Assembly: GCA_011526285.1 (NCBI GenBank)
Contig: WTJU01000021.1
Location: forward strand, 59,113-95,632
Source of the DNA: Candidatus Arcticimaribacter sp.
Lineage (GTDB): Bacteria; Bacteroidota; Bacteroidia; Flavobacteriales; Flavobacteriaceae
Direction: 5' to 3'
Length of the DNA: 36,520 bases
The translations under genes were made by a program, and so were the position numbers. The notes below the pieces were generated by a model. That model had not been told where the DNA came from. It made no database searches and saw only the letters and a program-made list of their open reading frames with translations. Below are positions 1 through 17,228 of this stretch, piece after piece; position 1 is the first letter of the stretch; every line of letters begins with the position of its first letter.

Positions 1-2204
1 TTTCCTTTTCCATCGTTTAGGTAGATACGATCGGTTAGATAGGGATCATTTTGTTCCATATCGTTCCCTCCACTAACGATGTAAAGGTCACGATCACCAT
101 CTAAATCAATATCAATGGTTGCGGCGTCTACGTCTTCAAAGTTTCGATCGCCTAACAGGTCTGGGTTGTTTTGCTTTTCGAAAGCACCATTGGCTTGTGC
201 CATCCAAATCTCTGCAGGTTGCATGCGTGCGCCACCAACAAAGATGTCTTTTAAGCCGTCACCATTAAAGTCTTCTAGCAAAAAGGCTGGCCCTTCTTCG
301 GATAATTTTTCAGGCATTAAGCCTTCGCGTTCGTAGTCGAGGTAATAGTTCTCTTCGTATTTGAATGGAAGTACCGATAGTTTAAATGGTGGGGTAGTTT
401 CTTCTTCTAGAAGTGATGCTTTGTTGGGTGCATAAGCTAGTGTTAATTGAGTGGACGAAAGGTTTTCTGCCCAGCGTTGTGTTTCGCCATCTGGCCAGAC
501 AATTAACAATGAATCTACAACAGTAGTGGCAGGAAGGCCAAAATGTACTTTATGGGTTGAACCTGATTGAAAACCACGTGTTGTACTTTTGGTTTGTACA
601 TAGGCTTTTCCTTGTGCGTAAAGGTGAAGGGTGGTTCCATTGAGATTTTTATTCTCAGGGTGACTTAATGAAATGGTTAAACCTCCCTGATTGTATTTAT
701 TTTCATAAAGGGAAGCTTTTTCATTAATGTTGTTCACCACCAAGTCTAAATCACCATCGTTATCTAGATCGCTAAAAGCAGCTCCGTTTGAGAAACTAGG
801 TTCACCTAAGAAGGAATCTTCTAGGGCTGAGAATTTTAAATTTCCTTTGTTTTTGAATAGAACATTTGGAATTTTTAAGGTTGGCATCTCTGCAATGATT
901 TCCTTTCGCAATTCATTTTGCTCTTCGCGTGCATAGCTTGCAAACTTTATATCGCTTATGTAGTTGATGTAGTCTAAATCATTTGGGCGTTTGACAATTC
1001 CATTAGATATAAAAATATCATTGTTCCAATCGTTATCAAAATCAGCCAAGAGAACGGACCAGCTCCAGTCGGTAGCATAAACATCTGCCATCAAACTCAC
1101 TTCAGAGAAGCTTCCATTTGTATTTTGCAGTTGCAGGTTGTTGTGGGCTAGCTGTGGCTCAAAGCCAAAATCTTTTTTAATGCGATCAACCTTATCGGTA
1201 TCTTCTCCCCCTGATTTCAGGAAAATCTCTGCTTGGTTGGGCATCATATCTGTTGAAAAGATATCAAGTAGCCCATCGTTGTTTAGGTCTGCTATGTCGA
1301 CCCCCATGGTGAAACGACTACTGTGACTAATGGTTTCTTTTACCGCTTCTTTAAAGGTTTTGTCTTTTTGGTTGAGGTAGACAAAATCATTTTCATGAAA
1401 GTCATTCCCGACATAAAGATCGGGCCAACCGTCGCGATTGATGTCAGCTACTCTAACAGCTAAACCGTAGCCCAAGGGACTAGAATAAATTCCAGAAGTC
1501 TCTGTAACATCAACAAAGCTTCCTTCTGCTTCGTTCAGGCGGTTTTCATAAAAACGATCTCCACTTAACGGGGCTTCTTCAAGGCGTTTCTTGGTTGTGC
1601 CATAGCTTCGTACTGTATGCACTGCATGATTGAGCAAATAGAGGTCTAGGTCACCGTCGCGGTCATAGTCTATAAATGCAGGTTGGGTAGATAGGCCTGA
1701 GAAATCGAGTCCTAATTGGCGTGAACTTTCTGTGAAGGTACCGTTACCGTTATTGAGGTAAAGAATATTGTGTGCTTGTAGTCCTTTGTGATTGCCAACT
1801 TTTGCTACAAAAATATCAAGATAACCGTCGTTGTTTACGTCTTCCATAGCGACTCCACTAGACCAGCTATTGTCGGTGTAGATATTTGCCTCGGTGGTAA
1901 TGTCTTTGAACGTTAGATTGCCTTGGTTAAGGTATAGTTTGTCTGATCCTTGATTGGCAGTAAAAAAAATATCTTCAAGCCCATCGTTGTTTATATCGCC
2001 AATGGCTACTCCACCACCATTGTAATAATAGAGGTATTCTAGAATATTGATATTGTCTTTGTATACCAAGTTATTTTCAAAGGTAATTCCGGTTTGTTCT
2101 GCAGGGAGTGCTGTTAAAGGAATTTGATGGGGTTTTGCTTGTGGTGAACGGTCACAGTTCAATACAACAAATGCAGCACACAAGAGAAAAAGAGCTCTTT
2201 TCAT
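1..2204 (-). CDS. FG-GAP/VCBS repeat ASPIC/UnbV lipoprotein, C-terminus cut by window edge
   Basis: This open frame begins at an ATG at 2204 and runs off the left end with no stop, so about 733 residues are visible. It starts with a lipoprotein signal peptide with lipobox VVLNC (lipidated Cys17). Seven FG-GAP calcium-loop motifs of the form DxNxDGxxD follow (for example DINNDGLED, DVNNDGYLD, DYDRDGDLD, DLDNDGDLD). Next is an ASPIC/UnbV domain at about residues 505-590 (TTRGFQSG, VHFGL, VWPDG), then the start of a second FG-GAP set (DFNGDGLKD, DIDLDGDRD). FG-GAP repeats form beta-propellers in this family. It is a paralogue of the genes at 2208-5474 and 6027-9257 and lies 3 nt after the stop of the former, so it is probably co-transcribed and translationally coupled. 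Its partner or substrate is unknown. The outer-membrane location is inferred from the lipobox and the SusCD neighbours. Confidence 0.88.
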   Translation of the reverse strand, partial: MKRALFLLCAAFVVLNCDRSPQAKPHQIPLTALPAEQTGITFENNLVYKDNINILEYLYYYNGGGVAIGDINNDGLEDIFFTANQGSDKLYLNQGNLTFKDITTEANIYTDNSWSSGVAMEDVNNDGYLDIFVAKVGNHKGLQAHNILYLNNGNGTFTESSRQLGLDFSGLSTQPAFIDYDRDGDLDLYLLNHAVHTVRSYGTTKKRLEEAPLSGDRFYENRLNEAEGSFVDVTETSGIYSSPLGYGLAVRVADINRDGWPDLYVGNDFHENDFVYLNQKDKTFKEAVKETISHSSRFTMGVDIADLNNDGLLDIFSTDMMPNQAEIFLKSGGEDTDKVDRIKKDFGFEPQLAHNNLQLQNTNGSFSEVSLMADVYATDWSWSVLLADFDNDWNNDIFISNGIVKRPNDLDYINYISDIKFASYAREEQNELRKEIIAEMPTLKIPNVLFKNKGNLKFSALEDSFLGEPSFSNGAAFSDLDNDGDLDLVVNNINEKASLYENKYNQGGLTISLSHPENKNLNGTTLHLYAQGKAYVQTKSTTRGFQSGSTHKVHFGLPATTVVDSLLIVWPDGETQRWAENLSSTQLTLAYAPNKASLLEEETTPPFKLSVLPFKYEENYYLDYEREGLMPEKLSEEGPAFLLEDFNGDGLKDIFVGGARMQPAEIWMAQANGAFEKQNNPDLLGDRNFEDVDAATIDIDLDGDRDLYIVSGGNDMEQNDPYLTDRIYLNDGKG

Positions 2205-2207
2205 GGT

Positions 2208-5200
2208 CTAAAATTTAAATGTGGCTATGGAGTCATTGTTTCTAAACACAAACAAGGTGTTGTTAATCGCTTTAATATCACGCACCTCACCTTTTACAGA
2301 GAATCCTTTCCCGTCTTTAAAGCTCTGGAATGTTCCATTTCCAGTGTTTTCGAGGTAGGTACCGTAAGAGGCATCATATATTCCTACTTCAGGTTTAGCT
2401 TTAAATAGGTTACCTCCTAAGAAAAGGTCTAGGTCTCCATCTTGGTCTACGTCAACAGATTCTATTGCATAAACAGGACTAAGCTGGGCTTCTTGTGGCA
2501 ATTCACTCCAAGCAAAGTTGAAGTTTCCTTGGTTTATTAAGATGCCAGATGCAAAGTTGTTCGCTGTTTGAATCAATGCTGATGCGCGTTGTTGTTCATC
2601 AAAAATTGCGGTGATATCTGCATCACGGAAGGAAGCATAGTCTGGAAACTTCTTTTTTAGAATCTTCATTTGATCAATAAGATCATGGCGTAATGCATAG
2701 GGGAAATCTCGTCCATCATCTGCGGTAAAGGTCAAAACACCTTCAACAGATCCATTTTGATCAAAGTCATTTAGATACATTTTAACGGGTCTTTCTTTGG
2801 AAGTGCGAAAACGACTGTTTTTCCCATGATTCCCCAATACTATGTCTAAGTCACCGTCTTGGTCTACATCAACAGTATGCGCTCTAAGCCACCACCCTCT
2901 TTCTTCCATAAGGGGGTGTTCTTTTTTGATAAAACTTCCATTTTGATTTTCAAAGAGGTTGATACCGGTAAACTCTCCCACAACAATTAAGTCTGGGTCT
3001 TTGTCATTATCCATATCAATAAATTGTGCATCGGTAATCATACCCAAATTGATAAAACTCTCGGCTTGCTGTGGGGTTTGGTCGCTAAAATTCCCTTTCC
3101 CGTCGTTAATGAGTAGGTATCCAGAACCCGGAAGTCCATAGGCACTGTATTTCAAACGCTCACCCACAAATAAATCAAGATCACCGTCTAAATCAACATC
3201 TGCAGCTCTTACCGCTCCAGAGCTGATGCGATGGTTAGGATTGGGAAGTTTTTGTTCTGAGAGGGTGAAGTTTCCTTTACCATCATTGAATAGTAAACGG
3301 TCATAGACCATTTCAGAATAGGGCGTTACTTCTATCCCACCACTCACCAAATACAAATCAAGGTCATTGTCGTTGTCTGCATCAAACAAAAGGGTTTCGG
3401 TATGCTCTGCCCCTTTAATTTGATCAAACACTTCTTGAGATAAATTGCTATTGATCCAGCCTTGGGCTGACCCAAGCAATAGTTGAACAGGACTATTTTT
3501 CGCTCCTGGAATGACCAGATCGGTGTATCCATCGTTGTTGATGTCTCCTTGGCTGCTCACAGGACCTTCATTACTACACATGTGATAGGTCAACCGTTCA
3601 CGATGGAAGTCAACAAAGTTATTTTCTTTGTGTGTGTAGGCGGGTTTTTTTGCGGCAGCAAATTGTTGGTTTTCTTTTGAAAAATCAAAGTTTAGGGTTT
3701 CTCCTTGCTTGGTTTCTTCTTTTATTGTTATTGGATTGTCAAGTGAGATATTCTCTATACGACTTGTTCCACCCGTTGGCCAAATCACATCAATTGTAGC
3801 GGTCTCAGCCTCTCCTAAACCAACATGAAGTTTAGGATCCATACTCGATTGAAAACCACGAATTGGATAGTGCTCGGCAAAATAGATTTGTTCATTTGCT
3901 TCAATGCGTATTTTGGCCCCCAAGGCTTGGGTGTTTTTCCCTGCACCTACCAGTTGCAGTTGTAAGGCATTTGAAGTGGTTGGGTCTAATTTGTTTTCAT
4001 AGACAAAAGCTGGCATATTGACATTGTTCACTACAAGGTCTAAATCGCCATCATTATCTAAATCTCCATAAGCGGAACCGTTGGAAAAGCTGGCTTGATT
4101 TAAGCCAGATTCTGTGTAAAAGTCAAAACTGAAATCTCCTTGGTTTAAGTAGGAGTGATTGGGCACTTTCTCACTCGGAATTATATCGATTAGTCGTTTA
4201 AAATCAACTTTTTTTCCACTTACTACTGATTGAATAACTTCTTCGCTCGAAACGTATTGTAGGTAATCTTGGTCGGTTAAATCTTGATAAATACCGTTGG
4301 CTACAAATAGGTCGCGAAGACCGTCATTATTCATATCAAAAAAGAGGGCTCCCCAGCTCCAGTCTGAAGCTTCTACACCTGCTAGACGACCAACTTCACT
4401 AAATGTTCCGTTGGTGTTGTTGCGATGCAACATGTTGCGGGTAAATTGATGCCCATAACCGTTTTTAACGTTGTATTGGTATTTATTCCAATCTTCGAAG
4501 GTGGTTACGGTTTTTAGACGATTATAGTTGCTGGGCAACATTTCGGTTACAAAAAGATCGTGGAAACCGTCGTTATCGAGATCGGCTAAGTCAGCCCCCA
4601 TTGAGGCTCCACTAATGGAGCGCATTTGTTCTGGGAGTACTTCTTTAAAGGTTCCGTCTTGTTGATTTATGTAGAGGTAGTCACGCTCAAAAAAGTCGTT
4701 CGAAATAAATAGATCATCCCAACCATCACGATTAATGTCTCCTACGGTTACCCCTAGACCAAAACCAATAACACTTCCGTAAATTCCTGCTTCTTCACTA
4801 ACGTCGTAAAATTTTCCATCGCGGTTTTCCATTAGTTTATCCCCCCCAAGGAGGTCGCGTTTTGGGCGTTCGTTACGACGTAAATCAAAGCTCCCAATGG
4901 CTTGATAGGAGTTGTTTAAGATATATACATCTAGATCACCATCTTTATCATAATCAAAAAAGGTAGCGTGGGTAGAAAAGCCTTTGTCTGCAAGGTTGTA
5001 GTCTTCTGCACTTTCTACAAAGGTTCCATTTCCTTGGTTAATGAATAGTTCGTTTTCCTTTTTATCTCCGGCAATGTCTCCAGAGTTACAAACATAAATG
5101 TCCAACCAACCGTCGGCATTAATGTCTACCATAGCAACCCCTGTAGACCATGCACGTTGCCCTGCAACTCCTGCTGTAGCTGTAATGTCTTTAAAGGTAA

Positions 5201-5474
5201 AGTCACCTTGGTTTAGATAAAGTTTATTCTCACTTTGGTTTGCAGTAAAGTATACATCAACCCAACCATCGTTATTAATGTCTCCCAATGCTACTCCTCC
5301 TCCGTTGTAATAGTTACGATACTTATAAACATTGAAATCATCAGAATAGCTTAGATTATTTTCAAAGGCAATTCCAATTTGAGCATTTTCTTTTAGTTCA
5401 AATTGTGATTTGTTGTTGGCATCGGAACAAGCGATGAGTAGTCCGATAAGGAGGCCTCCCAGTAGCTTTTTCAT
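2208..5474 (-). CDS. Giant FG-GAP/VCBS repeat ASPIC/UnbV lipoprotein (1088 aa)
   Basis: The protein opens with a lipoprotein signal peptide (LLIAC, Cys16). Seven FG-GAP calcium loops lie between about residues 65 and 480 (DINNDGWVD, DINADGWLD, DYDKDGDLD, DINRDGWDD, DLDNDGFHD, DMNNDGLRD, DLDNDGDLD). An ASPIC/UnbV domain follows at about 505-585 (RGFQSSMDPKLHVGLG, VIWPTGG). A second set of seven loops runs from about 644 to 1055 (DINNDGYTD, DADNDNDLD, DVDLDGDLD, DMDNDKDPD, DVDQDGDLD, a degenerate DFDQNGSVE, DVDQDGDLD). I read this as two seven-bladed propellers joined by the UnbV domain. No catalytic motif is recognisable. Proteins of this type are often annotated as VCBS repeat or CRTAC1-family proteins; CRTAC1 is an animal extracellular-matrix protein. 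The start is 2 nt past the stop of the small lipoprotein gene. A surface-exposed binding role beside SusCD is inference. Confidence 0.92.
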   Translation of the reverse strand: MKKLLGGLLIGLLIACSDANNKSQFELKENAQIGIAFENNLSYSDDFNVYKYRNYYNGGGVALGDINNDGWVDVYFTANQSENKLYLNQGDFTFKDITATAGVAGQRAWSTGVAMVDINADGWLDIYVCNSGDIAGDKKENELFINQGNGTFVESAEDYNLADKGFSTHATFFDYDKDGDLDVYILNNSYQAIGSFDLRRNERPKRDLLGGDKLMENRDGKFYDVSEEAGIYGSVIGFGLGVTVGDINRDGWDDLFISNDFFERDYLYINQQDGTFKEVLPEQMRSISGASMGADLADLDNDGFHDLFVTEMLPSNYNRLKTVTTFEDWNKYQYNVKNGYGHQFTRNMLHRNNTNGTFSEVGRLAGVEASDWSWGALFFDMNNDGLRDLFVANGIYQDLTDQDYLQYVSSEEVIQSVVSGKKVDFKRLIDIIPSEKVPNHSYLNQGDFSFDFYTESGLNQASFSNGSAYGDLDNDGDLDLVVNNVNMPAFVYENKLDPTTSNALQLQLVGAGKNTQALGAKIRIEANEQIYFAEHYPIRGFQSSMDPKLHVGLGEAETATIDVIWPTGGTSRIENISLDNPITIKEETKQGETLNFDFSKENQQFAAAKKPAYTHKENNFVDFHRERLTYHMCSNEGPVSSQGDINNDGYTDLVIPGAKNSPVQLLLGSAQGWINSNLSQEVFDQIKGAEHTETLLFDADNDNDLDLYLVSGGIEVTPYSEMVYDRLLFNDGKGNFTLSEQKLPNPNHRISSGAVRAADVDLDGDLDLFVGERLKYSAYGLPGSGYLLINDGKGNFSDQTPQQAESFINLGMITDAQFIDMDNDKDPDLIVVGEFTGINLFENQNGSFIKKEHPLMEERGWWLRAHTVDVDQDGDLDIVLGNHGKNSRFRTSKERPVKMYLNDFDQNGSVEGVLTFTADDGRDFPYALRHDLIDQMKILKKKFPDYASFRDADITAIFDEQQRASALIQTANNFASGILINQGNFNFAWSELPQEAQLSPVYAIESVDVDQDGDLDLFLGGNLFKAKPEVGIYDASYGTYLENTGNGTFQSFKDGKGFSVKGEVRDIKAINNTLFVFRNNDSIATFKF

Positions 5475-5476
5475 AA

Positions 5477-6034
5477 TTATGGAGCGGTTATATCTTCAAT
5501 GCGAACGGCAATTTGGCGATCGTCAATTTTGATGAGTTTAAATTCTAAGTTTCCTTCAATTTTATAGGAGGCAAACATGTCGTCTATTTTTAAGTCTACA
5601 TCCATAAAATCGTTTCCTGGATACCACTTAACTAGGGTGTCCTCAATGGCTTCTTTTAGGTCGTCGGCTTGATATCCTTCCGCCCATGGGGACCAACCGG
5701 TGTACGAAAATCGCATTCTAAAACCGGTCATTTTATCTTCTTCATCGAATATCCCATAAAAGAGCATGTCTATGCGCTTTCCATTTTCTTCTTTTGGCTC
5801 TAAATAATGACGCGCAAATTCATTCCCTGGCCCTGCCATGATTTCACCTGTCTTATTTAGTTCCCAGCACTTGGCATAAAAATCTTTTTTTGAATCGCCT
5901 AGTTTTAATCCAAAGGGCATGGAGTCTATTGTAATTCCTCTTGCAAGTTCTTTCTCTTTTAATCGTTTATAGGGCGATGTTTCACAGGCTGCTATACACA
6001 GGAGTATAAGCCCCAAATAGATTAGTTTATTCAT
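5477..6034 (-). CDS. Small lipoprotein of unknown function between two UnbV giants
   Basis: I do not recognise this 185-residue protein. An upstream TTG at 6040 is in frame, but the ATG at 6034 gives a cleaner signal peptide (MNKLIYLGLILLCIAAC) with lipobox CIAAC and lipidated Cys17. The mature part is mixed alpha/beta in character and rich in charged and aromatic residues (MPFGLKLGDSKKDF, FRMRFSYTGWSPW, VKWYPGNDF), with one further cysteine (AKCWEL) and no repeats or transmembrane segments. The start overlaps the stop of the upstream giant lipoprotein by 8 nt, and its own stop lies 2 nt before the next giant's ATG. It is therefore likely translated with both and may be an accessory or chaperone-like partner. 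That role is inferred from context alone. Confidence 0.85.
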   Translation of the reverse strand: MNKLIYLGLILLCIAACETSPYKRLKEKELARGITIDSMPFGLKLGDSKKDFYAKCWELNKTGEIMAGPGNEFARHYLEPKEENGKRIDMLFYGIFDEEDKMTGFRMRFSYTGWSPWAEGYQADDLKEAIEDTLVKWYPGNDFMDVDLKIDDMFASYKIEGNLEFKLIKIDDRQIAVRIEDITAP

Positions 6035-9000
6035 TCTCAAAATAGATTATGGGTTCATTGTTTCGTGCAAAGATAAGTCCTTTTTTATTGCTATTGTTTA
6101 GGGTAGAAATGTCACGGATTTGACCTTCTATATTGAGGTGTTTAAATGTGTTTAAACGATATTCCCCATCAATTTTTTCACCATATATTACCCCTCCTTT
6201 TGATGCGTCTTGTCGCCCAAATTGTGGTTTTATTTTGTATTGATTTCCTCCTAGTACGATATCTGTAATACCATCTTGATTGATGTCACTTTCTCGCATA
6301 CTGTAGATAGAGGTGTACTGTGCTTCTTGCGGCAAATCCATTGGGGTAAAACTTCCATTTTTATTCAAGAATACGGTTGTTTCTAAACGATCTATTTCAT
6401 AGATCAATGCTTTCGCTAGTTGTTGGGAATCAAAAAGATCTTCTATGCTCATCTTAGCGTAATCTTTGTAATAAAGTATCTGCTTTTTTACACTTGGAAG
6501 TTGTGCAATTAGTTCGTCTTTGTCGAGTATGGGGTAATATTTTTCTCCTCGCTTAAAGGTTGTAATCTGATCGAGGTATCCGTTACGGTCAAAATCTGCA
6601 ATATAAAGACGCATGCCCGGTTCAAAAAAGTTATTCTGTCCCATGTTTCCCGCAAGGACTTCAGGAAAGCCATCTCCGTTTAAATCAGCCACACGAATAC
6701 TGTTCCAATTCCCTCGGCTATTTTCAAGCCCCGGTAGTTTTTGGGGGATTAATTTACCCTGATTGTTAATGTAGGTAACAATTCCCATCCAGTCACCCAG
6801 TAGAATAAGATCGAGCCATCCGTCTTGGTTCAAATCGGCAAATTGGGCATCGGTAATCATTCCTAAATTTCTAAAGTCTTCTTCTTGTTCTAGGGTAAAC
6901 TTTGTCCCATTTCCTTTAAACAAGAAGCCATCGCCAGGTAAACCAAAATCAAGGTTTTTTAGGTATTCTCCCACAAAAACATCCGGATATCCATCTTTAT
7001 CTATATCGCCTATGGCCAGTGCGCCTGAAGATATTGCACGTGGAAAGGGATTTGCTTCTGGACGGTAGATCAATTCTCCTTTAACATTTTCGTAGTAATG
7101 ATCGTTTAGTTCTTGGCTATATGGGGTGTATGCCCTCCCGCCATTGGCCACCCACAAATCAAGGTCACCATCTTGGTCTGCATCAAAAAATTGGGCTTTT
7201 ACAGCTTCTGATTTTTGTTGTGCATCGAAGTAGTTATTTCTTGGTTTTATTTCCCCACTCAATAGTAATTGATTGGTTTGGTTTTTTCCACCTCCAAGAA
7301 ATATATCATCTTCACCGTCTTGGTTAATATCAGCCACGGCTAGTGCTGGCCCACGATTACTACACATTATGGGTAATAATCGGTCACGATTAAAGTCTAT
7401 AAATGTATTTTCTTTATGGGTTAGGGCTGCTAGTTCTATGGCTTTTTCCTCTTGCTTTACTGTGGCGGTACTGGGTACACGTTTTTCTGTTGGAGTGAGG
7501 GTAATTAATTGGTTGGTTGCTAGGTTGTAAAAGGTTTCTTTTGTGCCATCGGGCCAAAAGACGTCTAGGCTGTCTACTGTTTTGGTGTTGCCAAGACCGA
7601 AGTGTAAACGATGTGGAACAGAGGATTCAAATCCTTTAGAAGGATATAGTTCACTTATAACTGGAGCTATTCCTTGTGCATAGGCAATGGCTTTTGTTCC
7701 AATTTGTGAGGTGTTTTTGCCTTCTGCTTTAGGTCGTATTTGTAAGCTGCGATGGGTTAAAGTATCACTATTGTTACGATAAACCAAAGCGGGCATGTTT
7801 ACGTTATTGATGACCAAATCTAAATCGCCATCGTTGTCTAAATCGCCATAAGCGCTTCCATTACTAAAGGTAGGTTGTTCAAAACCCCAAGCTGTATTGG
7901 CAGATGTAAAGCCAAAATCGCCTTGGTTTCTAAAGGCTTGGTTTGGTACTGCCTGTGAGGGCATGGCATCAATTAGTTTGGTAATTACATCGTTCCCTTC
8001 TTGGATCATGGAACGAATGTTGGTTTCATTGGCCATAAAAGCCAAATAATCTCTGTCGAGGAGGTCTTTGTATATCCCGTTAGAGATAAAGATGTCTTTT
8101 AACCCATCATTATCCATATCAAACAGTAGGGAAGCCCAACTCCATTCTGTTCCTGCAAGTTCACTCATACGGCTCACTTCAAAAAATCCGTTTTTGGTAT
8201 TGCGCTGTACTGCATTCCGCGGGAATTGGTGCGCATAGCCCTTTTTTACTGCAAGTTGATATTTATCCCACGACTCGTAGGTAGCTTTTGTTTTTTTTCG
8301 GGAGAGGGATTGGGGGAGCATTTCTGTGACTACTAGGTCTGGACGTAAATCATTGTCAAGGTCGGCGGCATCTGCTCCCATAGAGCCCATGGAAAGGGAA
8401 GAAAAGATGGTTTCTCCCTGTTCTTCAAAACCGCCTTTTGTGTTGTTTAGGTAATAATAGTCGCGCTCAAAAAAATCGTTAGAAATAAAAAGATCTGGCC
8501 AATGGTCATTGTTAAAGTCACTGAGGGTGATCCCTAAGCCAAAGCCTATTGCGCTGGTATATATCCCTGCTTTTTTACTGCTGTCTACAAAATGGCTTCC
8601 GGTATTCTCAAGGTATTTATTCCCATTGTCATTGGGATCTGGTATGTCGCGTTGGCCTTCAATAAGGTCATAGCCTCCTACCGAACGTATGGAGTTGTTT
8701 AGTAAATAGGCGTCTAAATCGCCATCGCGATCTGCGTCAAAAAATGCTGCGTGTACAGAGAGACCTGTAATATCTAAACCATACGCCTTAGATTGCTCTG
8801 AAAATGTAAGGTCTTTATTATTTATGAATAGTTCATTATAGCGGCGTTCTCCCTCGGGTTTTCCAGATTTACACACGTAAAGGTCTAAATAACCATCGTG
8901 GTTAATGTCTACAAATGTTGCTCCAGCAGACCAAACGTCTGTACAAGCAACTCCTGCTTCTGCGGTAATGTCTTTGAACTTAAAGTTACCTAGGTTTAAG

Positions 9001-9257
9001 TAGAGTTTGTTTTCTACTATGTTCCCGCTAAAGAAAATATCAATTAAACCGTCGTTGTTAATATCACCTAAGGCAACTCCCCCACCATTGTAGAAGTTTC
9101 TATAGGTATAGGGATTAAACTCTTCTGTATAGCTTAGCGCATTGTTAAAGTCAATACCTGAACTAGCTGCCGGAATGGCTGTAAATAGGCTATCCTCTGA
9201 TTTTGTACAACTCAAAATGAGGAAGAAATACAGTAAGAAAGATGCTTTTTTTATCAA
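6027..9257 (-). CDS. Giant FG-GAP/VCBS repeat ASPIC/UnbV lipoprotein (1076 aa, TTG start)
   Basis: This is a paralogue of the gene at 2208-5474 with the same layout. It has lipobox LILSC (Cys17, followed by TKSED), seven FG-GAP loops (DINNDGLID, DINHDGYLD, DADRDGDLD, DFNNDHWPD, DLDNDLRPD, DMDNDGLKD, DLDNDGDLD), an ASPIC/UnbV segment (SKGFESSVPHRLHFGLG, VFWPDG), then seven more loops (DINQDGEDD, DADQDGDLD, DIDKDGYPD, DLNQDGWLD, DLNGDGFPE, DFDRNGYLD, DINQDGITD). The start codon appears to be TTG at 9257. No in-frame ATG lies between the upstream stop at 9321-9323 and the signal peptide, and a later start would lose the lipoprotein signal. It is the first gene after the terminator hairpin that follows susD, so its expression may depend on read-through. 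Function is unknown; surface ligand binding is inferred. Confidence 0.9.
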   Translation of the reverse strand: MIKKASFLLYFFLILSCTKSEDSLFTAIPAASSGIDFNNALSYTEEFNPYTYRNFYNGGGVALGDINNDGLIDIFFSGNIVENKLYLNLGNFKFKDITAEAGVACTDVWSAGATFVDINHDGYLDLYVCKSGKPEGERRYNELFINNKDLTFSEQSKAYGLDITGLSVHAAFFDADRDGDLDAYLLNNSIRSVGGYDLIEGQRDIPDPNDNGNKYLENTGSHFVDSSKKAGIYTSAIGFGLGITLSDFNNDHWPDLFISNDFFERDYYYLNNTKGGFEEQGETIFSSLSMGSMGADAADLDNDLRPDLVVTEMLPQSLSRKKTKATYESWDKYQLAVKKGYAHQFPRNAVQRNTKNGFFEVSRMSELAGTEWSWASLLFDMDNDGLKDIFISNGIYKDLLDRDYLAFMANETNIRSMIQEGNDVITKLIDAMPSQAVPNQAFRNQGDFGFTSANTAWGFEQPTFSNGSAYGDLDNDGDLDLVINNVNMPALVYRNNSDTLTHRSLQIRPKAEGKNTSQIGTKAIAYAQGIAPVISELYPSKGFESSVPHRLHFGLGNTKTVDSLDVFWPDGTKETFYNLATNQLITLTPTEKRVPSTATVKQEEKAIELAALTHKENTFIDFNRDRLLPIMCSNRGPALAVADINQDGEDDIFLGGGKNQTNQLLLSGEIKPRNNYFDAQQKSEAVKAQFFDADQDGDLDLWVANGGRAYTPYSQELNDHYYENVKGELIYRPEANPFPRAISSGALAIGDIDKDGYPDVFVGEYLKNLDFGLPGDGFLFKGNGTKFTLEQEEDFRNLGMITDAQFADLNQDGWLDLILLGDWMGIVTYINNQGKLIPQKLPGLENSRGNWNSIRVADLNGDGFPEVLAGNMGQNNFFEPGMRLYIADFDRNGYLDQITTFKRGEKYYPILDKDELIAQLPSVKKQILYYKDYAKMSIEDLFDSQQLAKALIYEIDRLETTVFLNKNGSFTPMDLPQEAQYTSIYSMRESDINQDGITDIVLGGNQYKIKPQFGRQDASKGGVIYGEKIDGEYRLNTFKHLNIEGQIRDISTLNNSNKKGLIFARNNEPIIYFENE

Positions 9258-9282: not shown

Positions 9283-9314
9283 AAAAAAAGGTTACACCAT
9301 TGGTGTAACCTTTT
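9283..9314 (-). terminator. Intrinsic terminator after susD
   Basis: A near-perfect inverted repeat AAAAGGTTACACCA / TGGTGTAACCTTTT has arms at 9286-9299 and 9301-9314. Read on the minus strand it is followed by a run of seven T (complement of 9283-9289), which is the form of a Rho-independent terminator for the susC-susD transcript. It ends only about 25 nt before the TTG start of the next gene, which leaves little room for a separate promoter. It may therefore act as a partial terminator that lowers expression of the downstream lipoproteins. On the plus strand the downstream T-tract is interrupted and weaker. Confidence 0.75.
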
Positions 9315-9335: not shown

Positions 9336-11018
9336 TTAGTAGCCTTGGTTCTGCGTTAATGTTCCTCCAGAAGCATTGATTGCATCTAGTGGGATAGGCA
9401 TTACGTTTTTGAAGGCTGGTGAATTGGTAGTTCCTTTTCCAGAATCAGATCCAGCAACGTAACGATCAAAACGAATTTGATCGGCACGGCGTGTAGACTC
9501 TTGGAACATTTCACGTCCTCTTTCAGCTAAGAATCCGTCTGCATCGATAGACGTTAATGCAGCAGCTCCAGAACGCGCACGGATGATATTCACATCAGGA
9601 AGCGCTAAGCTCCAGTTTCCAGCAGCACGAGCTCTTCCTTCAGCACGGATAAGGAACATTTCCCCTAAACGGATGATTGGATAGTCGTTGTCCATATCTG
9701 GACGACCAAATTGCTTCATACTGAATTTTCCTAAACGAGCTCCCGCCTGACGTAAACCGTTAGGGAAGATACCACCTGTGTTAGAAGGAGTAAAGTCTAG
9801 AGCAGAATCTGAATCTTCTGGCTCTTTAGCGTAGTCACGAACGATACCACCGTTGAAAGTTTTTTGGATACCTGCAATGTGGTTGTTTTCTTGACGACGG
9901 TCGCCAGCGCTATAATCATTATAGAAATCTGAAAGTGTCGCATAACCATTCCAAGGCTGCGCTTCAAAGTTCCAAGTGAACTGAGAACCGTAGTGTAAGG
10001 TCATTTTTGCGAAGTTCATTCCTCCAGCGTTTACTTCATCATACTCGATACTCCAGATAAATTCTGGATTCCCTTCGTTGTTTGCTGCAAAGATTGCTGC
10101 ATACCCTTCAAGGTTATCATAAGTGTAGATGTTTCCTTCTTCACGAGAAACTTGGTTAGAGTTTAAACGACCCAAGTTAGTCACAGAATAAGCAGTACCG
10201 TATCCTCCTGTATTACCAGAATAAGACGCAGTAGCTAAACGGTATTGCGTTCCGTTTTCAATTACGTGATCAGCAGCAGCAGCAGCTTCTGCATACATAG
10301 CAGTACCTGTGTACACCTCAGCATTTAAGTACAACTTAGCCAATAGACCAAGTGCAGCATATTCATTTGCACGATATGCATTGTTATCTGGACCAAATCC
10401 GGTTGGAGCTGTACCAGCCAATACTTGTGCACGGGTCAACCCTAATACGTCTAGCAATTCTGTCTCAACAAATGCAAATACATCTGCACGTGAAGATTGA
10501 GCTGCATCAACACCAGATTGGGTGATGATTTTTACACGTCCGTAAAGGTCTAATAATCTGTAGTAGAAAAATGCACGTACCGTACGCAATTGCTTTGTCC
10601 CGTCAGCATCAGCTGATGGTAAAGCGTCATTTACTGCGTTAATCCCTCCATACATCTGGTTCCACGTATTACCAATGATACCGTTGTTTGCAAGGAAGTT
10701 GTGCTTATGTAAATCAATTAGGATTCCTCCATCATACCAGTCCCCTCCTTTTGTTGCAATCCAAGCTTCATCAGAAGGTAAGGTTTGTGCAGAGAAGTGT
10801 CCAAAGTGACCAGCAGAACCGTCACGTAGTTTTGAGTAAGGCCCACCTAAAAGGTCTCCTCCTCCTCCTCCTGAACCTGCATTTAAGAAAGGTGCAGCAG
10901 GATTGGCTTCAGAATAGCTTTCGGTAAATTCTCCAGCTAATTCTTCTTCAAGATCTGTACATGAGTAGAAGGCTACACATGTCCCTAAGATCAATGATAG
11001 TGTTTTTAAACTTTTCAT
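9336..11018 (-). CDS. SusD/RagB-family outer-membrane nutrient-binding lipoprotein
   Basis: SusD-like proteins form the surface lid over a SusC-type TonB-dependent transporter and capture oligosaccharides or other oligomers. The frame could open at a TTG at 11024, but the ATG at 11018 is preferred (560 aa, MKSLKTLSLILG). The lipobox is FYSC, followed by the typical acidic stretch TDLEEEL. Family features seen are the TPR-like segment with FFYYRLLDLYGRV and the C-terminal hallmark IRLGEMFLIRAEGRAR followed by LPDVNIIRARSGAA. The gene lies 19 nt after the susC stop and is followed by a strong terminator. The substrate cannot be read from the sequence. No glycoside hydrolase, lyase or sulfatase is seen nearby to suggest one. 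Confidence 0.95.
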   Translation of the reverse strand: MKSLKTLSLILGTCVAFYSCTDLEEELAGEFTESYSEANPAAPFLNAGSGGGGGDLLGGPYSKLRDGSAGHFGHFSAQTLPSDEAWIATKGGDWYDGGILIDLHKHNFLANNGIIGNTWNQMYGGINAVNDALPSADADGTKQLRTVRAFFYYRLLDLYGRVKIITQSGVDAAQSSRADVFAFVETELLDVLGLTRAQVLAGTAPTGFGPDNNAYRANEYAALGLLAKLYLNAEVYTGTAMYAEAAAAADHVIENGTQYRLATASYSGNTGGYGTAYSVTNLGRLNSNQVSREEGNIYTYDNLEGYAAIFAANNEGNPEFIWSIEYDEVNAGGMNFAKMTLHYGSQFTWNFEAQPWNGYATLSDFYNDYSAGDRRQENNHIAGIQKTFNGGIVRDYAKEPEDSDSALDFTPSNTGGIFPNGLRQAGARLGKFSMKQFGRPDMDNDYPIIRLGEMFLIRAEGRARAAGNWSLALPDVNIIRARSGAAALTSIDADGFLAERGREMFQESTRRADQIRFDRYVAGSDSGKGTTNSPAFKNVMPIPLDAINASGGTLTQNQGY

Positions 11019-11037
11019 ATTCAATACTCTTTATTCA

Positions 11038-14013
11038 TTAAAATTTAATATTTACACCAAGTGTAAAGGTTCTAGAGAAGAAGTAGTTGTTTCTTCGGTC
11101 TATACCAGGTGCTAATACATCTGATCCAGATGTTGGATCTCCATTCGCTCCTGCTCCTGAGTCAACTAGTGCAGGCTCTGGATCTGTTCCTGTATAATCA
11201 GAGATTACAAATAGGTTCTGACCAGACAATGAGAGTGTCAACGCATCAATACCTGAGATGTTGGTATCAATTTTTCTAGATACAGTTAAGTTATCAAGTT
11301 TGATAAAGTCTGCTTTCTCAACATATAATGAACTAAACTGTGGTTGTGCCAAGTCATTGATCGCCAATGACGTGTTCACCAAGTTATACGATCCTTGTGT
11401 CGCAACACGTGGCTCGTAGAACGCACGGAATGAGTTCACTAAGCTGTGACCAAAGGCACCACGGAAGAACGCGTTGATGTTCCAGTCACCAATGGTGATG
11501 TTGTTGCTCCATCCTAATTCTAGATCAGGAATACCGTTACCTAGTACTTCAAAATCAGCATCTGGGTTCTGACCTTGGTCTCCTCCAGTTACTAATTGAC
11601 CGTCACCATTTACGTCAACTAGGTCTTGTGTACCATTTGAAACTGTTCCAGCATATACTGGTCCCCAAATGTCTCCAATAGGATCACCCACTCTTACTTT
11701 AATCAAGTTGGTTGAGTTTTGTCCTGGAGCACCTAGGTTCGCACGTGTAGTTAAACCGTCAAAGATGTACTCTGTTAATTTTGATTGGTTGTTTGACAAT
11801 ACGATTCCTGTAGTATAAGACGTATCGTCGTTGCTAATCACGTCATAATTTACCGCTAATTCGATACCGCTCGTCTCTAAGCTACCAGCATTGGTTGTAA
11901 TCGATGGGAAACCTGTAACAGCTACATCAGCAGGTACGTTTAAGATAAAGTCTTTGATGTCACGTGTATAGTAATCTAACGTTACATCTAACTTTCCTTT
12001 ACGGTACTCAATTCCAATGTTTGTCTCAGCTTTCTCTTCCCACTTTAAGTCTGGGTTTCCAGCACGTGCAGGTGTAGAGTTAAAGTTACCCAATGCATCG
12101 CTGCTGATGTTGTAAACATCTTGGGTTAAACCTGATTGACCTGGAAGGGCTCCAGTTACCCCGTATCCAACACGGAATTTTAACTTATCAGCACCTACAT
12201 TTAAGTACTTGTTTAAGTCAACTCCTAAACCAAATGATGGGAAGATACCCCACTGGTTGTTCTCTCCCAATTTAGTAGAACCTTCGCGACGAATCGAAGC
12301 GTTGATAAAGATCGCATCATCAATTGTAACGTTTGCACGTCCAAACATCGCGATAATTTTCTCGTCTGGAGAAGCGTTAGAGTTAGCAGAGATAAATCCA
12401 GCATTCTGTAAATCCTGTGATGTCTCAATTGCGTTTAAGAAGTTAAACCCATTGGATGGGAAATCTCCAAGAGAGAAGAACTTGTCAGAGTAGTTGTTCT
12501 GTTGATAAGAGTAACCTCCTGTAACAGCTAAGTTAACATTACCAAACTCATTGTTGTAACGTCCGTAAACTTCGTATAGTTTGAATTCGTTCTTGTTGTC
12601 AAAGAAACGTGCCTCCCCTTTACGAACCGGGCTAGTTGCATTCCCTCTAAATAAAGAAGTTGGTGCATAGTACTCACGGTTAGAATAAGATGAAGATTGG
12701 TTTGCAATGTTTACTGTAGCAGAGAAGTTCTCTGTAAAGTCATAGTCTAAGTTTAAACCATAGTTAAACTCAGTACGCTCTCCTTCGTTGATGTTCTGCA
12801 TCAAGATAGATACTGGGTTGAAGCTATCAAATAATCCTTCTGCTTCAAAGTATCCTCCATAAAGGGTTTCACTTACAGAAAGCTCAGATGGAGCGTCTGC
12901 GGCGAATACTGGTGCAGATGGGTTATAAAGCAATGCATAACGGAAGGCTTCGTTGAAACCATTTTGCTGCTCACGCTTAGTATAAGACGTGTTGAATGAC
13001 ACGCGTAACTTGTCGTTTAATGCAGTGGTTTGGATGCTTGCACGAGTGTTGAACTGATCGAAACCAGAACTCAGCATAACTCCTTCTACTTCACGTAAGT
13101 TAGCAGATAAACGGTAAGTAGTGTTACCTTCACCACCCGCTACTGAGAAGTTGTGGATTTTTGAGTTAGCGTTACGCGATACAGCGTCTAGCCAGTCAGT
13201 ATCGTTTTGAGCATCAAATCCTTGTAAACCAAAGTTTCCGCTAGTGAACTGATCTGCTGTAAGTACTTCAATCGTATCTGCAATGGTTGACATCGCAAAT
13301 TGACCGTTGTACTCAAACTGTGCTTTTCCTGATGCACCACGCTTAGTTGTTACTAAGATTACCCCAGCAGAACCACGTGAACCGTAGATCGCAGCAGCAG
13401 ATCCATCTTTCAATACGTTGATGCTCTCAATATCAGCAGGGTCAACGTTGTCTAAAGATGCACCAATGATACCGTCTACAACTACTAAAGGAGAAACGTT
13501 TGCTCCTACAGTTGAGATACCACGTAAACGAACAACACCTGCAGAGTTTGGATCTCCACCTCTGTTGTAGATAGAAAGTCCAGCAACTTTACCTTGTAAT
13601 AGTTGGTTGGCGTTGTTAATGGTACCACGGTTAAACTCTTCTTGGTCTACCTTTACTACTGCAGAGGTAATTTCTTTTGAGCGTTGTGATCCATATCCTG
13701 TTACAACTACTTCTTCTAGCTCATTGTCGGCTGCTAAAGTAACTGCAATTTGGTCTTGGCCACCAACAGCAACTTCCTGTGTTGCGAAACCAACGAAAGA
13801 AACGACTAAAACATCGTCAGCGCCAGCTGAGATACTAAAGTTTCCGTCAAAGTCGGTTGTTGTACCATTGCTGGTACCTTTAACAACAACAGTCGCCCCA
13901 GGAAGGGGTCCATCTTCACTCGACACAGTACCTGATACTGATTGAGCATACACTCCCATACTTACTACAAAAAGTAGCGCAGACAGGAATGCCTTGAATT
14001 GAATTGTTTTCAT
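11038..14013 (-). CDS. SusC/RagA-family TonB-dependent outer-membrane transporter
   Basis: This 991-residue protein imports SusD-captured ligand across the outer membrane using TonB energy. Order of parts: Sec signal peptide ending in VYAQS at about residue 25; a carboxypeptidase-regulatory-like beta-sandwich (VSGTVSSEDGPLPGATVVVKG to about residue 95); a TonB-box region LEEVVVTGYG; a plug domain with LLQGKVAGLSI, VRLRGIST, VVDGIIG and the SusC signature GSRGSAGVILVTTKRG; then a 22-strand-type barrel ending in the aromatic residue of GVNIKF. Length is normal for the family. It is the first gene of the operon, divergent from the LacI-type regulator, with a 163 bp shared promoter region that holds an operator-like palindrome. 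Confidence 0.96.
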   Translation of the reverse strand: MKTIQFKAFLSALLFVVSMGVYAQSVSGTVSSEDGPLPGATVVVKGTSNGTTTDFDGNFSISAGADDVLVVSFVGFATQEVAVGGQDQIAVTLAADNELEEVVVTGYGSQRSKEITSAVVKVDQEEFNRGTINNANQLLQGKVAGLSIYNRGGDPNSAGVVRLRGISTVGANVSPLVVVDGIIGASLDNVDPADIESINVLKDGSAAAIYGSRGSAGVILVTTKRGASGKAQFEYNGQFAMSTIADTIEVLTADQFTSGNFGLQGFDAQNDTDWLDAVSRNANSKIHNFSVAGGEGNTTYRLSANLREVEGVMLSSGFDQFNTRASIQTTALNDKLRVSFNTSYTKREQQNGFNEAFRYALLYNPSAPVFAADAPSELSVSETLYGGYFEAEGLFDSFNPVSILMQNINEGERTEFNYGLNLDYDFTENFSATVNIANQSSSYSNREYYAPTSLFRGNATSPVRKGEARFFDNKNEFKLYEVYGRYNNEFGNVNLAVTGGYSYQQNNYSDKFFSLGDFPSNGFNFLNAIETSQDLQNAGFISANSNASPDEKIIAMFGRANVTIDDAIFINASIRREGSTKLGENNQWGIFPSFGLGVDLNKYLNVGADKLKFRVGYGVTGALPGQSGLTQDVYNISSDALGNFNSTPARAGNPDLKWEEKAETNIGIEYRKGKLDVTLDYYTRDIKDFILNVPADVAVTGFPSITTNAGSLETSGIELAVNYDVISNDDTSYTTGIVLSNNQSKLTEYIFDGLTTRANLGAPGQNSTNLIKVRVGDPIGDIWGPVYAGTVSNGTQDLVDVNGDGQLVTGGDQGQNPDADFEVLGNGIPDLELGWSNNITIGDWNINAFFRGAFGHSLVNSFRAFYEPRVATQGSYNLVNTSLAINDLAQPQFSSLYVEKADFIKLDNLTVSRKIDTNISGIDALTLSLSGQNLFVISDYTGTDPEPALVDSGAGANGDPTSGSDVLAPGIDRRNNYFFSRTFTLGVNIKF

Positions 14014-14123
14014 TCTTGTTTGTTTAAATTAATTGAGTTGATTGTAATTCCTACAGCCTCTAAAATAGTTTAATGATATATATATACAGTGAGTAAATGT
14101 TAAAATTTTTAACAGTTTCTTTC

Positions 14124-14137
14124 GAAATCGTTTTCGT
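14124..14137. promoter_or_regulatory. LacI-family operator-like palindrome
   Basis: The 14-mer CGAAATCGTTTTCG is a near-palindrome (12 of 14 positions match its reverse complement) centred on a CG step. LacI/GalR-family dimers typically recognise such sites through their hinge helix. It lies 40 bp upstream of the LacI-type gene and 110 bp upstream of susC on the other strand. It could serve autoregulation, susCD control, or both. Only one clear copy is seen. Confidence 0.5.
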
Positions 14138-14176: not shown

Positions 14177-15193
14177 ATGAGTAACCTGACGCTGAAAGAC
14201 ATTGCTAAAACCTTAAACCTTTCAATAACTACTGTATCTAAGGCTTTAAAAGATTACCCTGATGTAAGTGCTAAGACAAAAGAAAGGGTAAGGGCATATG
14301 CCGAAGAAGTCAACTTTACACCTAACGCATACGCTGCTTTTTTACGCACACAAGAATCAAAAATTATTGGGGTAATCATTCCGCGTTTAAATCATTATTT
14401 CTTTAGCAACGTGCTCAAAGGAATTATGAAGGCTGCAGAAGAACACAGCTACATGGTGATTGTTTTAAATTCAGAGGAATCTTATGAATTAGAACAGAAG
14501 CAAGTTGATCGATTACTACGACAAAATGTAGATGGTATTCTCATGTCTATAGCCGATTCTACGCATGATCTTGAACACATCAATAAAATAACAAAGCAAA
14601 ATATTCCTTTGGTCTTTTTTGATAAGTACTCTAAGCTTAGTAATTGTTCGAGTGTTATTATTAATGATCAAAATGCGGCTTTTGCAGCTGTTGAACATTT
14701 AATCAAACAAGGCAAGAAAAATATCGCTCATTTTCGAGGGCCACTTTTACCCCAAAATTCTATTGATCGCTTTTTAGGCTACCGGAAAGCCCTTGATCAT
14801 TACGGCATCGAATATCGAAAAGAATGGGTGTTTCGCTGTGATGACATTTCTAGTGACGAGGGGTATGCTTACACTCAATCTATTGTTGAGGAACACCCTG
14901 AAATTGATGCAATATTTGCAGTTGCTGATATGCCTGCTATTGGAGCGATTAAATACCTTAATGAGCAAAAGATTGAAATCCCAAATCAAATTGCTGTGAT
15001 GGGGTTCAGCAATTGGAAAATCGCCAATTTAATTACTCCTGGCTTAAGTACTATTAATCAACCCGGTGAGTTAATGGGCAAAAAAGCTTTTGAACTATTT
15101 TATACTGAATTACAAAATATCAAAAAGGGTGTGATCGCCGAAAAGCAAATTGTTGAGTTAGAAACTGATTTGATTATTCGAAATTCAACCTGA
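14177..15193 (+). CDS. LacI/GalR-family transcriptional regulator
   Basis: This 338-residue protein is a likely sugar-responsive repressor or activator of the adjacent susCD operon. The N-terminus is a classic LacI helix-turn-helix (LTLKDIAKTLNLSITTVSKALKDYP, residues 4-28), followed by the hinge region NFTPNAYAAFLR and a periplasmic-binding-protein-like effector domain from about residue 60 (IIGVIIPRLNHYFFSNVLKGI; later IAVMGFSNWKIANLITPGLSTINQP). Start: ATG at 14177; an ATG at 14170 runs into a stop after four codons. It is divergent from susC across 163 bp containing an operator-like palindrome. LacI-type control of a SusCD locus is less usual than SusR/HTCS or ECF-sigma control. The effector cannot be told from the sequence. 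Confidence 0.95.
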   Translation: MSNLTLKDIAKTLNLSITTVSKALKDYPDVSAKTKERVRAYAEEVNFTPNAYAAFLRTQESKIIGVIIPRLNHYFFSNVLKGIMKAAEEHSYMVIVLNSEESYELEQKQVDRLLRQNVDGILMSIADSTHDLEHINKITKQNIPLVFFDKYSKLSNCSSVIINDQNAAFAAVEHLIKQGKKNIAHFRGPLLPQNSIDRFLGYRKALDHYGIEYRKEWVFRCDDISSDEGYAYTQSIVEEHPEIDAIFAVADMPAIGAIKYLNEQKIEIPNQIAVMGFSNWKIANLITPGLSTINQPGELMGKKAFELFYTELQNIKKGVIAEKQIVELETDLIIRNST

Positions 15194-16122: not shown

Positions 16123-16136
16123 TTCTTTATGGAAGC

Positions 16137-17156: not shown

Positions 17157-17161
17157 CATTA

Positions 17162-17169: not shown

Positions 17170-17181
17170 GCCGATGCAAAC

Positions 17182-17205: not shown

Positions 17206-17228
17206 CTCTTGTATCAAATTTCTTGAAG

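Follow-up and report, generated by a model that had tools for sequence, protein, structure and literature searches.

In the SusCD utilisomes encoded by the polysaccharide utilisation loci (PULs) of Bacteroidota, SusC and SusD are followed by lipoproteins in one operon, and PULs are controlled by hybrid two-component or sigma/anti-sigma systems. UnbV proteins are annotated mostly through their repeats (VCBS, FG-GAP, CRTAC1-like). Here we describe an operon that joins the two, in a 36,520-nucleotide stretch of Candidatus Arcticimaribacter sp. (the window). Like a PUL, it has SusC, SusD and then lipoproteins. It differs in lacking a glycoside hydrolase anywhere from lacI to the symporter gene, in its accessory proteins, which are three UnbV double propellers (U1 to U3) and a small, weakly PsbP/DcrB-like lipoprotein (x), and in having a LacI-type regulator. 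Among the titles and abstracts listed in our searches of the open-licence literature, we found no description of UnbV proteins together with SusCD, and in the portions of PMC3174227 and PMC10818511 available to us UnbV and TonB are both named, in unrelated passages only.

The genes are arranged as a divergent lacI followed by susC-susD-U1-x-U2-U3, a vanadium haloperoxidase gene and a GPH symporter gene (Table 1), the last two lying beyond the window edge, where they were read from the adjoining part of the contig. With SusC beside SusD, the locus encodes a SusCD transporter, and the three UnbV lipoproteins that an earlier note had placed behind this pair are indeed there. The same note saw no hydrolase, which holds for susC through U3; the apparent lack of an enzyme arises because the window edge cuts the operon, which continues into a vanadium-haloperoxidase-like lipoprotein and the symporter. 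In Pfam and NCBIfam profile scans (15 of the window's frames were covered with Pfam), none of the operon genes matched a glycoside hydrolase or a lyase, and the locus thus falls outside PULs as defined by polysaccharide-active enzymes in the same operon. We favor reading it as a LacI-controlled SusCD operon that takes up a small sugar or a glycoside, with U1 to U3 and x as accessory surface subunits, and give this reading somewhat better than even odds (about 0.57).

Table 1. Features of the UnbV-SusCD operon, in window coordinates.
Feature	Position	Strand	Evidence
lacI-family regulator, divergent from susC	14177..15193	+	PF00532, PF00356
Palindromic LacI-type candidate operator CGAAAACGATTTCG, between lacI and susC	14123..14136	-	CG-centred palindrome
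susC, TonB-dependent outer-membrane transporter	11038..14013	-	TIGR04056, 610 bits; PF13715, PF07715, PF00593
susD, predicted surface substrate-binding lipoprotein	9336..11024	-	PF07980, E=1.5e-16
Terminator-like hairpin between susD and U1	9286..9314	-	13-bp stem (pattern scan), 16 pairs (fold)
U1, UnbV double-propeller lipoprotein, position 1	6027..9257	-	domain matches and structure model
UnbV/ASPIC domain of U1	7500..7703	-	PF07593
Loop 13 of U1 (in a propeller 2 insert), DFDRNGYLD	6570..6596	-	alignment and model strands
x, small lipoprotein encoded between U1 and U2	5477..6034	-	homologues in relatives; model pLDDT 94
U2, UnbV double-propeller lipoprotein, position 2	2208..5474	-	domains, loop count
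UnbV/ASPIC domain of U2	3735..3926	-	PF07593
Loop 13 of U2, DFDQNGSVE	2742..2768	-	loop pattern count
U3, UnbV lipoprotein, position 3	3..2204, on to contig position 58266	-	N run inside; cut by window edge
UnbV/ASPIC domain of U3	447..638 (contig 59559-59750)	-	PF07593

The UnbV proteins belong to the UnbV/ASPIC FG-GAP (CRTAC1-like) family, with matches to PF13517, PF01839 and PF07593. Counting the calcium loop pattern D-x-[DN]-x-[DN]-x3-[DE], we obtained exactly 14 loops in each of U1 and U2, where the UnbV domain is flanked by seven on each side, and seven N-terminal of that domain in U3, just as the earlier note had counted. The domain scores of U1 and U2 (FG-GAP_3, E = 2e-78 and 2e-68; UnbV_ASPIC, E = 1e-15 and 1e-18) indicate that this repeat layout is not due to chance. 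U1, the sole UnbV protein modelled (pLDDT 91, pTM 0.90), is predicted to consist of a CRTAC1-like propeller with an ASPIC domain, followed by a second propeller. Residues 21-591 resemble murine CRTAC1 (PDB 9etn; 460 aligned, Z 38.0, rmsd 2.5), which is also the only PDB match of U1 by sequence; unlike CRTAC1, U1 adds a lipobox cysteine and the second propeller with its loop-13 insert. Residues 604-1076, which make up this second propeller, align to propellers that we take to be seven-bladed. The model therefore predicts a double seven-bladed layout, in which the blade borders are our reading of the DSSP strand order.

The thirteenth loop had been described as degenerate, and as marking a conserved special blade; neither description survives. 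Positions 1, 3 and 5 are D, D and N in all 55 aligned sequences, 49 of which fit D-x-[DN]-x-[DN]-G-x-x-[DE], and position 5 is never D, the usual residue there in the other loops. In U1, loop 13 starts 30 residues past loop 12 and 103 ahead of loop 14 and sits between model strands 883-887 and 896-903, and this spacing and placement lead us not to count it as a blade. We therefore rejected a degenerate blade 13: in the model, propeller 2 carries an insert, and this loop is a fixed DxDxN calcium-loop variant within it. Its high conservation, together with the nearly invariant H614, E616 and D621 ahead of the first loop of propeller 2, is what one might expect if that propeller were an enzyme, such as a sugar lyase or dehydratase, and its fold does match aldos-2-ulose dehydratase (4a7k; Z 29.8, rmsd 3.0, 339 aligned). 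However, LGI1 is matched about equally well (Z 30.4, rmsd 2.6, 314 aligned) and many unrelated propellers also reach Z 25-28, so that we regard an enzymatic propeller 2 as highly improbable.

Protein x matched no Pfam or NCBIfam family. Among the folds listed, its model gave only weak matches, to 4ygt (Z 6.2, rmsd 4.4, 112 aligned), 6e8a (Z 5.1, rmsd 4.8, 100 aligned) and 2vu4 (Z 4.7, rmsd 3.6, 90 aligned). It thus weakly resembles the DUF4309/YjgB, DcrB and PsbP folds, at Z < 8 and tied with unrelated chains, and differs from them in having no sequence family that we could find.

The arrangement recurs in relatives; Maribacter polysaccharolyticus D37, for example, carries lacI | susC-susD-U1-x-U2-U3-haloperoxidase. 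Among 84 UnbV chains in 80 named loci, which are the best by similarity and hence non-random, SusD lies directly upstream in 53 of the 70 chains with upstream room, the haloperoxidase is present in 29 of the 69 with downstream room, and x stands between the first and second UnbV genes in 43 of the 48 chains that have x and two or more UnbV genes. In the SusD scoring, two loci of the genus counted as having no SusD upstream proved on inspection to carry it (in L139 a longer frame overlaps susD; in L135 the U1 frame is broken). Sampling 60 genomes evenly across the class gave a different picture: only 3 of 30 long UnbV chains had SusD directly upstream. The linkage to SusCD that the earlier note anticipated is thus seen in the similarity-chosen loci but not across the class; it marks an operon type rather than UnbV proteins generally, and we rejected UnbV as a general SusCD partner. 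The operon type itself varies. Some Flavobacteriaceae have other genes between susD and the UnbV run, a variant that has two UnbV genes and lacks x is found in two genus members, and U1 had no match in 6 of 18 other genus members. Shorter forms, in which SusC-SusD is accompanied by one or two UnbV genes without x, were found at loci whose titles name Gemmatimonadaceae, Gemmatimonadetes and Roseithermus; the first two are from metagenome-assembled genomes, so contamination is possible there.

We also observed that the UnbV genes keep their positions. A tree was built from 177 UnbV proteins of at least 950 aa, a length that the window's U3 does not reach. In it, all 35 position-1 proteins of three-UnbV operons form one clade (support 0.65) that holds no position-2 or position-3 protein of such operons, all 31 position-3 proteins form a separate clade (support 0.997), and 22 of 34 position-2 proteins group together. 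For each of the window's three UnbV proteins, U1 to U3, the highest mean score is against its own position. The SusC proteins linked to UnbV likewise cluster, with 62 of 64 rows (five of them repeated genes) and 4 others grouped at support 0.99. Across four other genomes, the best SusC match reaches 54-56% identity in three; the fourth has a UnbV-linked SusC of just 33% identity. These old, distinct positions, the related SusC set and the shared palindrome described below would be hard to explain if the UnbV proteins were independent FG-GAP/integrin-like adhesins or lectins that bind algae or particles and happen to share an operon. That idea draws on the match of the N-terminal half of U1 to a vertebrate protein, CRTAC1, and on the interpretation of FG-GAP repeats as adhesion domains in marine flavobacteria, given in PMC2668756; we consider it rather unlikely.

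Regulation appears to be local. The best NCBIfam model for the lacI product is RbsR-like, with a score below the model's cut-off. The sequence CGAAAACGNTTTCG has a single exact match in its own genome, at the lacI-susC gap, and occurs at one place in five of six other genomes too, each time between lacI and susC; it is absent from three near relatives (L133, L134 and L136). Between 0 and 4 matches to a reversed control pattern were found in each genome; finding just one copy is thus unremarkable, and it is the location of the palindrome that serves as evidence. CG-centred palindromes were found in 19 of 25 lacI-susC gaps, versus a shuffle mean of 2.2. The divergent lacI gene and this palindrome predict control of the operon by a LacI-family protein at the candidate operator. 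Downstream of susD, a hairpin of at least 8 bp with a T tail is present at 50 of 82 susD-UnbV junctions of at least 25 bases, where shuffled sequence gives 0.04 each. A sigma-70 promoter scan returned 9 sites versus 11.0 expected.

A putative vanadium-haloperoxidase-type enzyme is part of the operon. The gene for this PAP2/vanadium-haloperoxidase lipoprotein overlaps the end of U3 by 4 bases, and the next gene encodes a GPH-type sugar symporter. The enzyme matches the vanadium iodoperoxidase of Zobellia galactanivorans (PDB 4cit, 4usz) over nearly its full length (E=1.2e-151) and aligns with all of K, R, SGH, R and H, presumably the vanadate-binding residues of vanadium haloperoxidases. Haloperoxidase activity is therefore predicted, although the protein may alternatively be a PAP2 phosphatase. 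A gene 98% identical to 4cit directly follows three UnbV genes downstream of lacI-susC-susD, and the UnbV operon thereby gives a genomic context to the crystallised iodoperoxidase.

This association raises the question of whether the UnbV proteins chiefly serve the haloperoxidase, with U3 and its sisters folding, anchoring or feeding a surface iodoperoxidase and SusCD being simply co-regulated. We read 40 loci at steps down a list of 114 haloperoxidase matches within one family, the two best included, and found a UnbV gene directly upstream in 35, at a median gap of 7 bases. In the class sample, the best six haloperoxidase matches all have a UnbV gene within 10 kb (four directly adjoining), whereas the eight weaker matches have none in the stretches read. 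All 43 haloperoxidases compared from UnbV loci retain K, R, H, R and H at the presumed vanadate site, and 42 of them also S and G; a 52-row haloperoxidase tree took in proteins of at least 401 aa from named loci and of 331-599 aa from other loci. UnbV-haloperoxidase pairs also occur without adjoining SusCD in the stretches read at L101, L121 and L122. However, six UnbV-haloperoxidase loci were initially covered by stretches that stopped short of susD or inside it; followed further upstream, every one of them showed susC-susD, and five showed a divergent lacI. In addition, 17 SusC-SusD-UnbV-x-UnbV-UnbV runs have no haloperoxidase within the run, some of them cut at their ends, the window's own included. 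On balance we think it unlikely, at roughly the level of a lesser contender, that serving the haloperoxidase is the main role of UnbV.

The proposal that the UnbV lipoproteins are extra surface subunits of SusCD is favored by the recurring gene order, the position-1 and position-3 clades, the SusC grouping and the palindrome, but has to accommodate a haloperoxidase in the same operon and a SusCD linkage specific to this operon type. Gene order that recurs with the transporter suggests a multi-part sugar-uptake machine. In such an uptake operon, SusC and SusD would form the TonB-dependent transporter, around which U1 to U3 and x would act as distinct, non-interchangeable surface subunits that capture or gate substrate at the cell surface. 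The hairpin after susD could allow SusCD to be made in excess over the UnbV lipoproteins and x, the haloperoxidase-like lipoprotein would work on the cell surface beside U3, and transfer of the sugar through the inner membrane would fall to the GPH symporter. Together with the palindrome, the hairpin and the relatedness of the SusCs, the recurring gene order and the position-1 and position-3 clades turn a repeat-annotated family into a definite, testable machine.

A bolder and rather doubtful version joins SusCD, three double-propeller subunits, the small lipoprotein and a vanadium iodoperoxidase into one calcium-dependent surface machine that couples uptake to hypohalite chemistry. Were it true, the machine might modify, protect or trap substrate, or use peroxide from the imported sugar. 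Iodine uptake by Arenibacter sp. C-21 is reported to depend on glucose, oxygen and calcium (PMC5064120), and the coupled machine could then provide its genetic basis.

Sugar genes near the relatives' operons include GH65 with beta-phosphoglucomutase, cyclomaltodextrinase, scrB-like and PfkB genes, as well as xylA/xylB, a sugar porter, GH97 and GH13; since these catabolic neighbors vary between loci, they do not fix the substrate of the window operon. Acidic residues follow the lipobox cysteine in the SusD family, and this acidic export motif is strong in SusD only, being unclear for U1 to U3, x and the haloperoxidase. The window's own genome has four SusD matches and UnbV domains at the operon locus alone, the stretches around the other three SusD matches containing no UnbV. 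Similarly, Maribacter polysaccharolyticus has 38 SusC-like matched stretches versus three UnbV matches, which lie in one run on one contig.

The UnbV double-propeller lipoproteins U1, U2 and U3, named for operon positions 1, 2 and 3 and all encoded on the minus strand, belong to a recurring operon that combines a SusCD transporter, three distinct double-propeller proteins, a small lipoprotein (x) and often a vanadium-haloperoxidase-like enzyme. They hold all three UnbV domains of their genome (1.98 Mb, 136 contigs, 85% complete). The earlier note had described the operon as lacking a hydrolase, which is how it appears in the window; however, the operon continues past the window edge. The gene after U3, overlapping it by 4 bases, encodes a 446-aa lipoprotein with a PAP2 domain that matches the vanadium iodoperoxidase of Zobellia galactanivorans (PDB 4cit/4usz) at E = 1.2e-151. 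It is followed by a 452-aa MFS protein (NCBIfam GPH_sucrose, 113 bits, under the cut-off of 511), a malic enzyme/phosphotransacetylase fusion and ruvA, while lacI lies on the far side, divergent from susC. A run of N interrupts U3 beside the left window edge. In another Candidatus Arcticimaribacter locus, L083, COX1 and a ruvB-like gene lie on one side and the malic enzyme fusion on the other, and these shared flanks suggest that the operon sits at an old chromosomal place.

Positions of features in and around the operon
Feature	Position	Strand	Remark
Palindrome CGAAAACGATTTCG	14123-14136	minus	lacI-susC gap
Gene for protein x	5477-6034		between U1 and U2
U3, 3' end	contig WTJU01000021.1, 58266	minus	outside the window
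queG-ruvB-COX1	15196-19079		operon flank
Malic enzyme/phosphotransacetylase fusion with ruvA	stretch L004, 12145-15101		other operon flank

Calcium loops of the pattern D-x-[DN]-x-[DN]-x3-[DE] occur 14 times each in U1 and U2, seven on either side of the UnbV domain, in agreement with the 7 + UnbV + 7 layout proposed in the earlier note; the part of U3 within the window has seven before the domain and two after it. A stricter pattern yields 12, 12 and 8 loops in U1, U2 and U3, and Pfam places ten FG-GAP_3 stretches and one UnbV_ASPIC domain in each of U1 and U2. Structure modelling covered U1 and protein x. In the AlphaFold2 model of U1 (55 sequences, mean pLDDT 91.0, pTM 0.90), residues 21-591 match murine CRTAC1 (9etn) with Z 38.0, rmsd 2.5 and 460 aligned in VIA-align 2, and the same structure ranks top in Foldseek (E = 2.3e-27). 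Residues 604-1076 match LGI1 (5y2z; Z 30.4, rmsd 2.6, 314 aligned), aldos-2-ulose dehydratase (4a7k; Z 29.8, rmsd 3.0, 339 aligned) and numerous further propellers at Z 25-28 by VIA-align 2. The propellers matched are ones we take to be seven-bladed. The model of U1 bears out two propellers, but one loop per blade does not seem to hold in propeller 2. Protein x was modelled with a pLDDT of 94, and no family was found for it in Pfam or NCBIfam.

The mismatch centers on the thirteenth loop, which had been proposed to mark a conserved special blade. Conservation is evident from an alignment of 55 sequences (40 from position 1, 7 from position 2 and 8 from position 3, U1 and U2 among them): loop positions 1, 3 and 5 are D, D and N in every sequence, and D-x-[DN]-x-[DN]-G-x-x-[DE] is present in 49, whereas D-x-[DN]-x-D-G-x-x-D is present in none. 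The blade itself fares less well. Loops in U1 are spaced 49-92 residues apart inside a propeller; loop 13 is the exception, at 30 residues from loop 12 and 103 from loop 14. In the model it lies between strands 883-887 and 896-903, with a helical stretch then running to about 948. With blade borders derived from strand order alone, we read loop 13 as part of a predicted insert, ~80 residues long, within blade 5 of propeller 2; the final blade of this propeller (1047-1074, closed by 607-613) would then carry no loop. The equality of seven loops and seven blades in propeller 2 would therefore be partly a numerical coincidence.

The named loci are the best 80 by similarity from a contig search, in which 571 of 596 pattern matches were confirmed. 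Their commonest run is susC-susD-UnbV-x-UnbV-UnbV (17, including the window), followed by the same run with a haloperoxidase (12). Among the 84 UnbV chains in these loci, SusD lies directly upstream by rule in 53 of the 70 with room, a haloperoxidase lies downstream in 29 of the 69 with room on that side, and x falls between UnbV 1 and 2 in 43 of the 48 chains of at least two UnbV that have x. Applied to the window's genus, the rule places SusD upstream in 10 of the 12 chains with room for it, and both misses (L135, L139) show susD on inspection. The complete row from divergent lacI to the MFS gene is found in three genus loci (L133, L138, L139); L140 and L141 have two UnbV genes without x, and L142-L144 have one UnbV gene. 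In L140, L141 and L083, this two-gene variant carries an extra gene of ~290-300 aa ahead of the haloperoxidase, with no Pfam hit for that of L140. U1 is matched in 15 of the 31 genomes searched, its own included, and finds no match in 6 of the 18 other genus members. Across an even class sample, 26 of 60 genomes, again including its own, contain a UnbV domain. The surroundings of every listed match outside its own genome (47 stretches) have SusD directly upstream in 3 of 30 chains of long UnbV/FG-GAP proteins with room upstream; in L090, susC-susD lies a little further up. The proposed association with SusCD thus recurs among the best 80 loci, but it marks a subfamily rather than the whole UnbV family. 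One locus, L132 in genome G050, has a tandem array of four FG-GAP/UnbV proteins, each about 875-896 aa long, without adjoining SusCD.

A FastTree phylogeny of 177 UnbV proteins of at least 950 aa separates the operon positions. In three-UnbV operons, all 35 position 1 proteins fall in one clade (54 members, support 0.65) that contains no position 2 or 3 proteins of such operons, all 31 position 3 proteins fall in another (46 members, support 0.997), and 22 of 34 position 2 proteins fall in a third (32 members, support 0.98), the other 12 lying outside it. U1, U2 and U3 each score highest on average against their own position. Positions 1 and 3 at least therefore look like old, separate subunits, not recent copies. 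From gene order and descent, we infer that the UnbV proteins are most likely subunits of the SusCD transporter.

The UnbV proteins could instead serve the haloperoxidase, which we consider less likely. The class sample holds 14 haloperoxidase matches of at least 89 bits outside the window's own genome; the best six all have a UnbV gene within 10 kb, directly adjoining in four, and the eight weaker ones have no UnbV in the stretches examined. The match in genome G024 contains an internal stop. In the family of Maribacter polysaccharolyticus, a 4cit query gives 114 matches at E <=1e-130 in 109 of 249 genomes. A UnbV gene lies directly upstream in 35 of the 40 loci examined (median gap 7 bases), farther away in two (L160, L161) and is lacking in three (L172, L175, L189). 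The enzyme of genome G097, 98% identical to 4cit, is preceded by three UnbV genes; farther upstream, past some other genes, are lacI and susC-susD (L157, L233). In six loci the first stretch stopped short of susD or inside it; the next one has susC-susD in all six and divergent lacI in five. The presumed vanadate-site residues K, R, H, R and H are kept in all 43 enzymes of UnbV loci, and in 6, 8, 5, 5 and 3, respectively, of eight enzymes without UnbV nearby. In the haloperoxidase tree, the nearest enzymes to 4cit are those of L033 and L009, which both come from UnbV operons. A gene of ~300 aa often follows the haloperoxidase in L079, L162 and other Flavobacteriaceae loci, with a GyrI-like domain in the two scanned.

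Two results, the SusC of genome G094 and the control for the lacI-susC palindrome, shift the balance slightly from the transporter toward the haloperoxidase. Of four other genomes compared, three each contain a single match to the window SusC at 54-56% identity; the other long SusC matches in these three reach about 30-33%, and shorter ones as much as 50%. The exception is G094, whose UnbV-linked SusC shares just 33% identity with that of the window. The palindrome is CG-centered (at least 6 of 7 pairs) and is found in the lacI-susC gap of 19 out of 25 loci; in 100 shuffles the number of gaps with one averaged 2.2 and peaked at 8. The six loci that lack it include L133, L134 and L136, all near relatives. 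The sequence CGAAAACGNTTTCG occurs at a single place in the window's own genome and in five of six others searched, always in the lacI-susC gap, and is absent from the sixth, G061. Its reversed pattern gives 0 to 4 matches per genome, so one copy could arise by chance and the evidence lies in its location. In the SusC tree, a limited test with just 14 other sequences and five linked rows that duplicate a gene, 62 of 64 UnbV-linked rows group with two others (support 0.48) or four others (support 0.99).

Downstream of susD, ahead of the first UnbV gene, a hairpin of at least 8 pairs is present in 64 of 82 junctions of at least 25 bases, 50 with a T tail, these counts coming from related loci that are not independent; shuffled junctions give 0.13 hairpins per sequence, 0.04 with a T tail. 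Elsewhere in the operon the genes are closely packed, with median gaps from -14 to 13 bases, and the 54 gaps of at least 25 bases hold 5 hairpins, one with a T tail. The hairpin after susD resembles a partial terminator, which would yield a surplus of SusCD.

The window operon's own substrate hints are its GPH-like symporter and regulator only. Among relatives, the representatives scanned include GH65 with beta-phosphoglucomutase, cyclomaltodextrinase, xylose isomerase, an SSS symporter, PfkB kinase, glycoside 3-dehydrogenase (BT_2158 family), GH97 and a sugar-porter MFS, with a xylulokinase and a scrB-like protein scoring under cut-off. These neighbors, a set that varies by locus, suggest small sugars and their glycosides as candidate substrates. 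In L006, L008, L012 and L061, GH65 and beta-phosphoglucomutase-like genes (one of each scanned) adjoin lacI on the same strand.
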